DNA of 64,000 bases. Source: Haloprofundus salinisoli. GTDB lineage: Archaea > Halobacteriota > Halobacteria > Halobacteriales > Haloferacaceae. The notes beneath the pieces are model-generated. The model had not been told where the DNA came from. It ran no database searches and saw nothing but the letters and a program-made list of their open reading frames with translations. The translations under genes were made by a program, and so were the position numbers. Below, one piece after another: positions 13,616 through 61,185 of this stretch. The stretch spans positions 744,001 to 808,000 of the forward strand of contig NZ_CP083663.1 in the NCBI RefSeq assembly GCF_020097815.1, in the 5' to 3' direction. Positions within the stretch are counted from its first letter, which is position 1, and the number at the start of each line of letters is the position of its first letter.

Positions 13616-16132
13616 TTAGTCCGCTTTCGCCTGCCAGTCTCGAACCGTATCCGCGCCCACGCCCTCGACACTCGCAGCCACGTCGTCGGGGTCGGCGTCT
13701 TTCAGCCCGGGCACGTCCGCGATCCCGGCTTCCTGCAGTTTCTCGGCCGTCTTCTCGCCGATGCCGGAGATGCTCTGCAGTTCGTCGCCGCCGACCTGCT
13801 GGGCCTGGTACTCGCGGTAGTTACAGATGGGACAGCCGAGCTCCCACGGCTCGTCGCCGTTGTGGACGACCAGGTGGGGAAGGCCGTGCTCCTCGCACTC
13901 CTCGTCGGTAACTTCGATCTCGCCGCGGCGCGGCAGCGGCAGCGAGTAGTCGCAGTCGGGGTAACGCGTACAGCCGACGAGCCGAGAGCCCGAACGGAGC
14001 TGTTTGATAGCCAACTCGCCCCCGTGTTCCTCGCCGCACTCCGGACACGTCCCGATGACGAGGTCGTCCTGCTCGTCGGCCTCGTCGGCTTTACACTGCG
14101 GACAGCCGTGGACGAACGTCTTCCGCCCGGCGAGCATCTTCACGTGGTGGAGGCCGTGCTCCTCGCACTCGTCTTCGAGGATGAGCGGCTTCCCCGTCGA
14201 CGGCAGCGGGAGCGTGTACTCGCAGTCGGGGTAGCCGTCGCAGCCGACGAAGTACGACCCGTACCGACTCTTGCGAACGAGGAGGTCCGCGCCGCACTCC
14301 GGGCACGGTCCGAGCGTCTTGTCCGCCTTCAAGGATTTTTGAAGCTGTGTTCCCAGCTCGTCGCTGGACTCCATCAGCCCCTCGAAGACGGTTTCGAGCA
14401 TCTCGCGGGACTCCTCGGTCACGTCCTCGAAATTCGTCTCTCCGTCGGCGATGGCGAGCATGTCCGCCTCGAGTTGTGCGGTCATCTCCTCGCTGACGAT
14501 GCGGTCGGCGAACTCCTCGGACGCGCTGACGACGGCGCGGGCGAGGCGGGTCGGCCGCGGCGGGTCGTTCTCGATGTAGTTTCTGTCGTAGAGCTTCTGA
14601 ATCACGTCGTGGCGGGTCGCCTTCGTCCCGATTCCCATCTGCTCCATCGTCTCGATGAGCCGCGACTGGCCGTAGCGGCGCGGCGGCTGGGTCTGCTTCG
14701 CCTCGAAGCGGGTGTCGGTGACCGCGAGCTCCTCGCCCTCCGAGACGTCGGGGACGAAGCTCTCGGTGTTGTTGAAGTACGGGTAGACGGCGTGGTAGCC
14801 CTCTTTGACGAGGCGCTTGCCGTTGGCCTTCAGCGAGAGCGGTTCGCCGTCGGCCGTCACGTTGGCGACGACGCGGAGGTGCTCCCACTTCGCCGCCTCG
14901 GCGACGGTGGCGAAGAACCGCCGGACGACGAGTTCGTACACCTCGTACTCGTCCTCGGAGATATCGGCCGAAGAGGGAAGCTCGCCGGTCGGGTGGATCG
15001 GCGGGTGGTCGGTCGTCTCCTCGTCGCCTTCTGTCGCCGTGAGTTCGTCGAGTTCCAGGAGAGATTCCGCGTCGTCGCCGAAGCGCCGCGTGCCGACGAA
15101 CTCCGAGACGAGTTCCTCGGGGTCGAGGTCGTCGGGGTAGACCGTGTTGTCCGTCCGCGGGTAGGTGATGTACCCCGCCGTGTAGAGGTCCTCGGCGATG
15201 CTCATCGCGCGCTGGGCGGAGTAGCCGATGCTGCCCGCCGCGCGGATGAACTGCGTGGTGTTGAACGGCGCGGGCGGCTTGTCCGTTCGCGTGCGGCGGC
15301 GGACCGACTGGACCGTCGCCGACGAGGCGGTCCGGAGCGTGTCGTAAACCGCGTTCGCGGTCTCTTCGTCCCAGACGCGCTCGGCCTCGTTGCTGTCCTC
15401 GTCGTGGTAGAAGTACTGCGCCTCGAACTCCTCGCCCGTCTCCGACTTTTCGAGGTCGGCGAACAGCTCCCAGTAGTCCTCGGGGTCGAAGGCGTCGATT
15501 TCGCGCTCGCGGTCGACGATGAGTTTCAGCGTCGGCCCCTGCACCCGACCGACGGAGATGAAGTCGTTGCCGAGCTGTCGGGCCGACAGCGAGAGAAAGC
15601 GCGTGAGCGCCGCGCCCCAGACGAGGTCGATTATCTGGCGGGCCTCGCCCGCCGCGGCGAGGTCGAAGTCGAGGTCTTCTGGATTCTCGAACGCCTCGGT
15701 CACCTCGCGCTTCGTGATGGAGGAAAAGCGCACGCGGTCGATGGGGGCCTCCTCGTTCACGTCGCGGACGAGTTCGTACGCCTCCTTCCCGATGAGTTCG
15801 CCCTCGCGGTCGTAGTCGGTGGCGATAGTGACGCGGGAGGCGTGGCGCGCGAGTCGCCGGAGGGCGGCGACGATGTTCTCCTGCGTCGGGTGTTTGTCGA
15901 TGGGCGCGTCGATGAGTTCGACGGGTTCGACGTCGCGCCAGTCGTTGTACTCCGGCGGGAAGTCGACGCCGACGACGTGACCCGACAGCCCGATGCAGCG
16001 CTTGCCGCCCCACTTGTAGACGTTCACCCCGTTCATCCGCTCGGCGTCGGCGGACTCGCCGCTGAGGATGTCCGCGATTCGCCTCGCGGCGTTGTCCTTC
16101 TCGGTGATTATCAGTTCCGGCCCCTTGCTCAT
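13616..16132 (-). CDS. topA: DNA topoisomerase I (type IA)
   Basis: An 838-residue archaeal topoisomerase I. An N-terminal Toprim domain (LIITEKDNAARRIADILSG; DYDREGELIG with the metal-binding Asp/Glu) is followed by the gate domains with the active Tyr in AGYITYPRTDNTVYP (near residue 320). Three CxxC-type zinc fingers follow at the C-terminus, and a helix-hairpin-helix tail (SISGIGEKTAEKLQEAGI). It relaxes negative supercoils. Length and domain order are normal for haloarchaea. The ATG at 16132 fits a leaderless start. Confidence 0.96.
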   Translation of the reverse strand: MSKGPELIITEKDNAARRIADILSGESADAERMNGVNVYKWGGKRCIGLSGHVVGVDFPPEYNDWRDVEPVELIDAPIDKHPTQENIVAALRRLARHASRVTIATDYDREGELIGKEAYELVRDVNEEAPIDRVRFSSITKREVTEAFENPEDLDFDLAAAGEARQIIDLVWGAALTRFLSLSARQLGNDFISVGRVQGPTLKLIVDREREIDAFDPEDYWELFADLEKSETGEEFEAQYFYHDEDSNEAERVWDEETANAVYDTLRTASSATVQSVRRRTRTDKPPAPFNTTQFIRAAGSIGYSAQRAMSIAEDLYTAGYITYPRTDNTVYPDDLDPEELVSEFVGTRRFGDDAESLLELDELTATEGDEETTDHPPIHPTGELPSSADISEDEYEVYELVVRRFFATVAEAAKWEHLRVVANVTADGEPLSLKANGKRLVKEGYHAVYPYFNNTESFVPDVSEGEELAVTDTRFEAKQTQPPRRYGQSRLIETMEQMGIGTKATRHDVIQKLYDRNYIENDPPRPTRLARAVVSASEEFADRIVSEEMTAQLEADMLAIADGETNFEDVTEESREMLETVFEGLMESSDELGTQLQKSLKADKTLGPCPECGADLLVRKSRYGSYFVGCDGYPDCEYTLPLPSTGKPLILEDECEEHGLHHVKMLAGRKTFVHGCPQCKADEADEQDDLVIGTCPECGEEHGGELAIKQLRSGSRLVGCTRYPDCDYSLPLPRRGEIEVTDEECEEHGLPHLVVHNGDEPWELGCPICNYREYQAQQVGGDELQSISGIGEKTAEKLQEAGIADVPGLKDADPDDVAASVEGVGADTVRDWQAKAD

Positions 16133-16265: not shown

Positions 16266-18128
16266 TCAGACGTGCTCGTCCAGGAACGCTCGAATCTGCT
16301 CGAACTCCTCGACGAGGTTCGACCGCGTCGTCGTGTGGTGACCCTCGTCCTCGAAGACGAGCTTCTCGACGGGCACGCCCCGCTCGCGCACCCGCTCGAC
16401 GATCTGCTCCGTCTCGCCGACGGGGACGCGCGGGTCGTTCGCGCCGTGCTGGACGAACAGCGGGCACTCGATTCGGTCGACCTTGTGAATCGGGCTGATC
16501 TCTCTCAGCAGCTCGCGGTCGTCCAGCGACCCGTACTCGGCGGCGCGGTGGTCGCGCCGCCACTCGCCGGTGTTCTCGAGGAACGTCTCGAAGTCGGCGA
16601 TGCCGACGAACTCCACCGCCGCCGCCCAGATTTCGGGGTACTCGGTGATGGCCGCGAGCACCATGAACCCGCCGTAGGAGCGGCCGTAGGCGACGATTCG
16701 GTCGGGGTCGACCATATCATGCTCGTAGAGCCAGTCGACGGCCGCCCGAATATCTTTCACCGAGTCCATCCGCTTCTCGCGGTCGTCGAGGTGGGTGTAC
16801 GTCTTCCCGTAGCCGGAGGACCCGCGGACGTTCGGTTCCAGTACGGCGTACCCCTCGTTGAGAAAGTACTGCTTCGTCGGGTAGAACCACGGCCGCCGCT
16901 GGTGTTCGGGGCCGCCGTGGATATCGACGATGACCGGCGTTTCGCCCGGTTCGGCGTCCGCGGGGAGCGTCCAGTACGCCGGTATCTCCCTCCTGTCGGG
17001 AGAGCTTTGCTCTCCCGTAGTCGCGTTCGCTTCACTCACGCGACCGTCGAAGCTCTCGTACCGAATCGTCTCCGCGCTCCGGAACGTCGACTGCGGGATG
17101 CCGACGGTGTCCAACGACGTCCAGCGCGTCGGTTCGGAGGTCCCGTCTACGGTTCCGACATAGATGCCGAACGGCTCGCTGTTCTCCGAGAACGTGAACG
17201 CGAACCGCTCCCCATCGGGACCGAGCGTCACGTCGGCGGCGACGCCCTCCGGGAGGTCGACTTCCGCAACGTCGACGGCCGTCTCGTCGACGAATTCGCC
17301 CGCGTACAGTTCCGAGTAACCGTCGACGTTGCGGCCGTAGACGAGTCTTCGAGAGTCGCGGTCGAAAGCGAACTCCTCGACGTTCCAGTTGCCGTCTCCG
17401 CCATCGCCGTCGGCAACGACGTCGATATCGGCCGTGTCGAGGTCGAGTCGTCCGAGGTAGCTCCTGTCTGCGTCGTGGTTCGTCACCAGATACAGCACGT
17501 CGCTTCCGGGACCGAACGTCACGCAGTCGTAGCTGGCTTCTCCGTCGGGGGTGACGACACCCACCTCGCCGGTTTCGAGCTCCAGAATAGACACCTCCTG
17601 GTCGAAACTCGCGTGTGCCTCGCGGAGCGCGAGCGATTCCCCGTCGGGACTCCATCCGAGCGCTTCGAGCCAGCCGTCGGACTCGAAGACGAGTTCAGCG
17701 TCGTCCGGGCCGCCGTCGCGGGTTTGCACGTACACGTCGAACGCCTGCGCGTCGCGCCGGTTCGAGGTGAACGCGAAGGAGTCGCCCGACGGCGACCACC
17801 CGCCCCAGCCGTGTATCGCGTCGGGGCGCTCAGTGAGACCGTGAATCGTCCCGTCGGCGGCGTCGTAGCGGAACAACTGGTCGCGCTCGTCGCTCCCCTG
17901 GTCCATCCCGAAGACGAACTCGTCGCGCGTCGGCGACCAGTCGATAAACGAGATTCGCTCCTCGAACGCGGTGAGTCGCGTCGGCGGCGCGTTCGCCCCG
18001 GCGAGCGTCCAAATCTGCGGCGTCCCGGTCGTGTCGCGGACGAACGTGAGGCGCTCGCCGTCCGAGGAGAACGCGGGCTGTCGGGCGGCGTCGATGCCGA
18101 GATAGCGAGCGACGGCGTACTGTGGCAT
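16266..18128 (-). CDS. S9-family serine peptidase (acylaminoacyl/prolyl oligopeptidase-like)
   Basis: A 620-residue cytosolic peptidase with a WD40-like beta-propeller (residues about 15-340) followed by an alpha/beta-hydrolase domain. The catalytic triad is Ser484 in GRSYGGFM, Asp565 in GANDPRVPVG and His597 in DEGHHTTTR. The ATG at 18128 was chosen because CTTATC lies about 27 bases upstream; the longer in-frame start at 18167 would put that box inside the gene. Between the propeller and the hydrolase, SFDG-R and REIPAYW are split by a 16-residue insertion carrying two hairpins in its DNA (separate entry). The triad is intact, so the enzyme is probably active. Confidence 0.92.
   Translation of the reverse strand: MPQYAVARYLGIDAARQPAFSSDGERLTFVRDTTGTPQIWTLAGANAPPTRLTAFEERISFIDWSPTRDEFVFGMDQGSDERDQLFRYDAADGTIHGLTERPDAIHGWGGWSPSGDSFAFTSNRRDAQAFDVYVQTRDGGPDDAELVFESDGWLEALGWSPDGESLALREAHASFDQEVSILELETGEVGVVTPDGEASYDCVTFGPGSDVLYLVTNHDADRSYLGRLDLDTADIDVVADGDGGDGNWNVEEFAFDRDSRRLVYGRNVDGYSELYAGEFVDETAVDVAEVDLPEGVAADVTLGPDGERFAFTFSENSEPFGIYVGTVDGTSEPTRWTSLDTVGIPQSTFRSAETIRYESFDGRVSEANATTGEQSSPDRREIPAYWTLPADAEPGETPVIVDIHGGPEHQRRPWFYPTKQYFLNEGYAVLEPNVRGSSGYGKTYTHLDDREKRMDSVKDIRAAVDWLYEHDMVDPDRIVAYGRSYGGFMVLAAITEYPEIWAAAVEFVGIADFETFLENTGEWRRDHRAAEYGSLDDRELLREISPIHKVDRIECPLFVQHGANDPRVPVGETEQIVERVRERGVPVEKLVFEDEGHHTTTRSNLVEEFEQIRAFLDEHV
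16992..17044 (-). repeat. Hairpin-bearing in-frame insertion inside the S9 peptidase gene
   Basis: Bases 16992-17039 encode 16 extra residues (VSEANATTGEQSSPDR). The DNA has a perfect 9 bp stem with TTT loop at 16997-17017 (CGGGAGAGC/GCTCTCCCG) and a 7 bp stem with an 11-base loop at 17020-17044 (GTCGCGT/ACGCGAC). The loop word GAGTGAAGCGA resembles the intergenic hairpin cluster near topA. The reading frame is preserved. Confidence 0.7.
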
Positions 18129-18273
18129 GCTTGCACAGTGGCCGCGGACCGGATAAGGGTTCAGCATCCGGCGGGCGTTTGCCGGGAGCGCGGGAGTCGT
18201 CGTGAGTGTCGCACACGTCGCTCGCCGGAAGCCGTGCGCTTATCTGTCGACCGACCGAGACTCCCGAGAGAAC

Positions 18274-61043: not shown

Positions 61044-61185
61044 GCGCCGAGAGAGATCTGAACCACGGTCGTTCCGCTCGCGTTCGTTTGCTCCACTCCC
61101 TAACTCGAATCTCTCGACCGACGTTTACCTCGTTGAGCCTCGCAGCGCGATGAAACGCGCCGCTCGGAGTGCAACGATCCGAAAA
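61044..61185. repeat. Tandem unit 1 carrying a copy of the tRNA-Ser 3' end
   Basis: This 142 bp unit begins GCGCCGAGAGAGATCTGAAC, a degenerate copy of the tRNA-Ser 3' end (the tRNA reads GCGCCGAGGGAGAGATTTG there on the plus strand). It ends with a block GCGCGATGAAACGCGCCGCT followed by CGAAAA, shared with unit 2. No gene is present. Confidence 0.75.

Follow-up and report, generated by a model that had tools for sequence, protein, structure and literature searches.

A 51-nt double-hairpin insert in the S9 peptidase gene described here is, in our judgement, very probably (probability of about 0.8) a copy of a non-autonomous mobile element that was moved in trans and has been kept in frame as a protein loop. 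The comparisons show elements of ~45-57 nt with two adjacent hairpins, which fall into several sequence families and are dispersed in many haloarchaea.

The insert in the S9 peptidase gene

The window (the whole 64,000-nt stretch of DNA that was analysed) carries an intact gene for a 633-aa peptidase of the S9 (prolyl oligopeptidase) family on the minus strand at 16266..18167. Its product matches Pfam PF00326 (E=1.8e-45) and contains a PD40 beta-propeller. An earlier note on this DNA had held that frame and catalytic triad were preserved, and this is the case: the 633-aa reading frame is uninterrupted, and Ser497 (GRSYGG, 16677..16679), Asp578 (GANDPR, 16434..16436) and His610 (DEGH, 16338..16340), all on the minus strand, lie in invariant columns of the alignment.

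As placed by the gap in the orthologue alignment, the insert spans 16992..17042 (minus strand) in codon register and encodes residues 376-392, RVSEANATTGEQSSPDR; 16994-17044 is a sequence-equivalent alternative split. The alignment reads SFDG-[RVSEANATTGEQSSPDR]-REIPAYW, and together with the junctions it gives 17 residues and 51 nt, which corrects the 16 residues and 48 bases given previously. The insert is missing from 4/4 congeneric orthologues (85-88% identical), in which SFDG/REIPAYW is uninterrupted, and 28 more distant homologues were aligned, all but two of which have nothing at this site. The expectations that the family normally runs straight through as SFDGREIPAYW, and that orthologues would reveal the extra residues as strain-specific, are therefore borne out. 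The two exceptions have insertions at the same site whose sequences differ from RVSEANATTGEQSSPDR. At locus L049, from another family of the order, the insertion at the S9 site is a double hairpin too (GACGGGC-AAC-GCCCGTC + GCGGGAC-GGA-GTCCCGC).

Both hairpins of the insert were found where the note had placed them. Hairpin 1 (17020..17044, minus strand; arms 17020-17026/17038-17044) has a 7-bp stem, GTCGCGT/ACGCGAC, and an 11-nt loop, GAGTGAAGCGA, which by the family consensus described below consists of a tandem GA/GA mismatch and, on top of it, a mini-hairpin with 2 bp and a GAA loop. Hairpin 2 (16997..17017, minus strand; arms 16997-17005/17009-17017) has a perfect 9-bp stem, CGGGAGAGC/GCTCTCCCG, and a 3-nt TTT loop. 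Folded as single-stranded DNA the insert reaches -18.5 kcal/mol (z = -5.8), a stability that was equalled by 0/200 shuffles. A search of Rfam with the insert gave no match at E<=1.

A dispersed repeat family with covarying stems

When the source genome (G000) was searched by words and with a 63-nt stretch of DNA, the matches were weak. One of them, at C1:2375562+, is the same element with compensated stems. The search for the paired words proposed in the earlier note turned out both ways: only the S9 copy holds both words, while other copies with paired hairpins do exist, including one in hisD. Exact words are too strict, and the repeat family was seen only once structure was scored alongside sequence. 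The likeness to hairpins near topA that had been reported was not upheld, as GAGTGAAGCGAACG occurs once in the window and the sole further near match, at 61085 with 3 mismatches, lies at a distance from topA. The family model applied to the 64,000-nt window found no credible copy besides the S9 insert.

A first covariance model (R1) detected 7 copies at E<2e-6 in G000 and matches in 12/12 other haloarchaeal genomes, with 6 to at least 99 per genome at E<=1; these counts are lower bounds, 150 candidates having been scored per genome. Most relatives sampled hold dozens of copies of this family (family I), which are mainly intergenic, the repeats being dispersed both between and inside genes. A second model (R2), built from coding copies, matches the S9 insert at 16992-17047 with 71.9 bits (E=1.2e-14) and has matches in 69/119 genomes of the taxonomic family, representing 19/28 genera. 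In a sample of 148 genomes from the phylum, R2 matches were confined to the haloarchaeal order.

The stems covary strongly. Across 44 family-I copies, standard pairs make up 98.1% of pair cells and 17/18 pairs show two-sided changes; 0/500 shuffles were comparable, and pairing with slid partners reached at most 50%. Because the copies were aligned by fitting them to the model, the pair counts favour it, but the margin is large nonetheless. Stem 1 has a conserved tandem GA/GA mismatch under a 2-bp stem, typically with a GAA loop. Among DNA mini-hairpins, GCGAAGC stands out for its stability.

Several observations concern the wider organization of family I. Intergenic copies at five loci (L089, L114, L123, L126 and L135, at ~1400-1700) lie inside composite repeats of 100-250 nt with several further hairpins, e.g. 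GCAGACGCTTCGCGTCTGC and ends containing CTTTTGGTC. On the two sides of hairpin 2 the flanking base changes together among copies (GCTCG...CGGTGC or GCACG...CGGAGC), and from the sequences it looks as if hairpin 2 were invertible relative to hairpin 1. One copy (L132 of G048, 1501-1623) has two successive GA/GA internal loops in stem 1, suggesting that stems may grow by 4-nt GANN units. A candidate in an alpha-amylase gene (L095, 28.6 bits) was dropped as it does not form two clear hairpins.

Family-I copies in genes and the use of one frame

The hisD copy at C1:2375562+ is in frame and also 51 nt long, FSG-[HVSEANVTAEVRSSSGS]-RELG. It is common to G000 and its congener G004, with different insert peptides in the two, and is missing in three other congeners (G001-G003). 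In the source genome, an sdhA-like gene (G000:1721431) and mutL (G000:1603224) also hold a family-I copy in an open frame, as do pheT (G011) and a uracil-DNA glycosylase gene (G048) elsewhere. The mutL copy scores weakly under R1 and 57.9 bits under R2, among whose building sequences it was. Orthologues with an empty site cover the S9 and hisD inserts, and the other four copies are assigned by their placement in an open frame; the counts of coding copies derive from samples. In the hisD genes of G011 and G010 (L062 and L063), different insertions of about a dozen residues occupy the same site without clear paired hairpins; they are possibly decayed older inserts.

All family-I coding copies (6/6) have the same orientation and frame (VSEAN/VPASEAS...). 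When tallied in the non-coding copies, this is the frame in which acidic residues most outweigh basic ones, and it contains stops in 4/32, while the remaining sense frames are Arg-rich with stops in 14/32 and 25/32. Two antisense frames have stops in just 3/32 and 1/32, yet basic residues outnumber acidic ones in them. Since these antisense frames are poor in stops as well, stops alone do not explain the choice of frame. Frame properties were also tallied for a mixed set of copies.

Double-hairpin insertions of other sequence

To look beyond family I, ~800 kb of G000 was aligned to syntenic blocks of three congeners and the alignment gaps were listed. Two or more perfect hairpins are present in 12/169 insertions of 36-66 nt, compared with 1.45 expected from random segments (p ~5e-8); the scan is conservative, missing family I with its imperfect hairpin 1. 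By folding energy, 13/243 insertions pass the 1% null level (2.5 expected), some of them simple repeats. An ab initio scan for adjacent perfect hairpins gave a ~4-5x excess over shuffled controls; it is noisy and misses stems with GA/GA.

Roughly twelve further double-hairpin insertions, 45-57 nt long and in frame, were found, with largely unrelated sequences. Confident coding hosts are the genes for GFPP synthase (GFPPS), a Dna2-like helicase, a CAAX protease, MTAP, a CxxCxxCC protein and a DUF309 protein, together with lhr, folD, mutS, trpC, trpA (in both G000 and G004) and topA (in G004). With hisD, the core genes among the hosts are trpA, trpC, mutS, topA, folD, GFPPS, MTAP and lhr. The suggestion of the note, a possible route by which haloarchaeal proteins gain insertions, holds, and the route is a recurrent one. 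Every catalogued coding insert has a length divisible by three and contains no stops. Two intergenic copies, a 49-nt double hairpin at G001:944762 and a family-II copy of ~55 nt downstream of glyA (G000:C1:2554560-2554618), indicate that the elements are not intrinsically bound to lengths divisible by three. The copy after glyA may break a small gene remnant out of frame.

Some of these inserts form further families. Family II comprises the copies in trpA, GFPPS and CAAX, at G000:646129 and at G000:2554560, which have ...GAGCCAACCAGAA...TTCTGGTGACG or part of it in common, and family III those in topA, MTAP and the Dna2-like gene, with GAGACGTCGGAGACGTCTC or close variants. The inserts in lhr, folD and trpC are among the singletons within the DNA compared.

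Two loci are described separately. The topA gene of G004 (C1:2081814, L230), orthologue of the topA gene at 13616-16132 of the window, has a 48-nt family-III insert in its C-terminal part by a zinc-finger motif, and the window's gene is without it. In G000, three double-hairpin inserts lie within ~3.5 kb (C1:714372-717908, L207), in the CAAX protease gene, trpC and trpA, and this region may be an insertion hot spot.

Predicted structure and apparent decay of stems

In the AlphaFold model of the S9 peptidase the insert (376-392) is a turn between strands 366-372 and 393-400 and the only internal stretch below pLDDT 50. The hisD insert (~108-124) is modelled as a low-pLDDT turn between strands 101-104 and 126-129; that model has one further low-confidence internal stretch, 379-399. 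Judging from frame use and these predictions, the S9 insert would be translated, its 17 polar and disordered residues lengthening a beta-turn on an enzyme that still functions.

The stems of the hisD and trpA copies are perfect in G004 and have one mismatch each in G000. These copies are shared by both genomes and hence older. The two examples, few as they are, suggest that the hairpin is not under selection in the host gene; stems appear to decay after insertion, so that the hairpin would be a property of the mobile form and not a function in the host gene.

Proposed origin and mobilisation of the inserts

We propose that an enzyme recognising the folded form would move the element in trans, and that integration would occur without restriction as to frame. 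Purifying selection would then keep, within genes, those copies whose length is divisible by three and that are free of stops and placed in a permissive loop, where in-frame inserts might be tolerated as acidic or polar surface loops. Judged by presence and absence in up to five congeneric genomes, the insertions are probably recent. No consistent target duplication or target motif was seen across the insert junctions compared; the trpA and GFPPS copies have GACG repeats on their flanks.

A remnant of an IS200/IS605 element reduced to its termini (PATE), or a REP/BIME, moved on single-stranded DNA by a hairpin-reading Y1 TnpA/RAYT, would also be ~50 bp long with palindromes near both ends and no consistent target duplication, and the diversity of element families would mirror that of the transposases. 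Terminal-only PATEs of 52 bp are known in Haloquadratum (PMC3119063). We nevertheless consider this origin unlikely. Y1_Tnp (PF01797, IS200/RAYT) has 0 matches in G000, whose genome is 99.4% complete, and none in the copy-rich G042 (at least 99 family matches at E<=1; genome 81% complete). Around 22 matches to tnpA in relatives, no family-I copy lies within the flanking DNA, and by eye no GTAG/CGTC tag is conserved in the aligned copies. The mobilising enzyme has possibly been lost, or is unrelated to IS200/605/RAYT. The proposal of the earlier note that a small palindromic mobile repeat entered the gene and became a protein loop is retained, while its designation as REP-type, in view of the lack of tag and Y1, is not.

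The palindromes could instead have formed locally within a permissive loop, by slippage or by template switching, with no dispersal of an element: template switching can yield perfect short hairpins, some inserts have no relative in the DNA compared, and the S9 site was hit again in another genus with a different sequence (L049). This is improbable: copies of families I, II and III at unrelated loci have loops, linkers and internal mismatches in common, as local events would not. It is highly improbable that ribosomes skip the insert as a mobile bypassing element, with hairpins acting in the mRNA and no peptide loop being made. Intragenic hairpin inserts do resemble the byps of mitochondria and the gap in gene 60 of phage T4, but bypassing would need neither the multiples of three and lack of stops of every catalogued coding insert nor the single frame of the family-I coding copies, and these constraints on length and frame speak against it. 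On informal inspection, take-off and landing codons that match were not noticed. A functional loop selected for salt adaptation, and gained or lost through ordinary indels or allele exchange, would accord with the polar peptides seen here and with the occurrence of insertion peptides in halophilic proteins, such as the 19-residue peptide of Halobacterium CysRS that is thought to aid flexibility (PMC3940603). This we regard as quite improbable for an insert that is strain-specific, hairpin-forming and repeated in unrelated proteins, and the hisD peptides differ between G000 and G004. A mobile double-hairpin element remains our preferred explanation.

Comparison with known elements

Palindromes within coding sequence have been described from Rickettsia, from Wolbachia and from M. 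jannaschii (PMC10969869, PMC2229807, PMC2996958). As with the RPE and Wolbachia palindromes (Ogata et al. 2000, 2002, 2005), which are described as intergenic as well as in frame in conserved genes, translated, tolerated and of several families per genome (PMC10969869, PMC2229807), the haloarchaeal elements are dispersed between and within genes, with in-frame insertion, relatives having empty sites and catalytic residues being kept. RPEs measure ~105-150 bp, form long stem-loops and have a conserved peptide (PMC2229807, PMC10969869); the S9 insert, at 51 nt with two short hairpins, is not of that kind, and the haloarchaeal elements differ in their 45-57 nt, two adjacent short hairpins, covarying stems and many unrelated sequence families. 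The coding palindromes of Methanocaldococcus jannaschii (Suyama et al. 2005; as cited in PMC2229807 and PMC2996958) are likewise archaeal and fused into protein genes; this host belongs to a different archaeal class. On the best reading, the haloarchaeal elements work like the coding palindromes of Rickettsia and Methanocaldococcus while being shorter, two-hairpin and diverse in sequence.

The PATEs/SMRs of Haloquadratum walsbyi (Dyall-Smith et al. 2011, PMC3119063) are also short, transposase-free and palindromic; they are described as IS605-derived, with longer complete copies and no target duplication. In-frame coding insertion is absent from the passages on PATEs that were consulted, and no IS605 link was found for the haloarchaeal double hairpins. 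The S9-type element resembles PATEs in its near-terminal palindromes without terminal inverted repeats; no palindromes in common with an IS605-type transposon were found around the 22 tnpA matches. REP/BIME/REPIN elements with RAYT are likewise short dispersed hairpins, sometimes paired, and in some species REPs also occur within genes (PMC3733652). In contrast to them, the two hairpins of the S9-type element are not inverted copies of each other, and tag and Y1 are lacking. With its ends in two different hairpins and no consistent target duplication seen, the element does not fit a MITE with terminal inverted repeats, and the coding inserts do not show the free length and frame of a mobile bypassing element. 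Fungal mitochondria have dispersed, presumed mobile elements of two adjacent hairpins; these are mitochondrial, and a relation to the haloarchaeal ones is not demonstrated. No earlier description of in-frame double-hairpin elements in haloarchaea was found in a literature search without most subscription papers, which does not prove novelty.

Implications

Most knowledge of in-frame coding palindromes comes from Rickettsia and Wolbachia, and a single report concerns archaea. In the present data the process looks widespread among free-living archaea. Several double-hairpin events per 400 kb differ between species of one genus, in genes that include mutS, topA, hisD and trpA. Double-hairpin insertion offers a concrete, testable origin for loop insertions in halophilic proteins, and the findings point to mobilisation machinery that would act on very small folded elements. 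More tentatively, and at somewhat less than an even chance, haloarchaea may harbour a superfamily of minimal mobile double hairpins (45-57 nt) that has not been described before, in which architecture is kept over sequence, essential genes are entered, and a mover reads the shape of the hairpins in DNA or RNA. If so, these elements would be a main source of the loops that set haloarchaeal proteins apart from their homologues.
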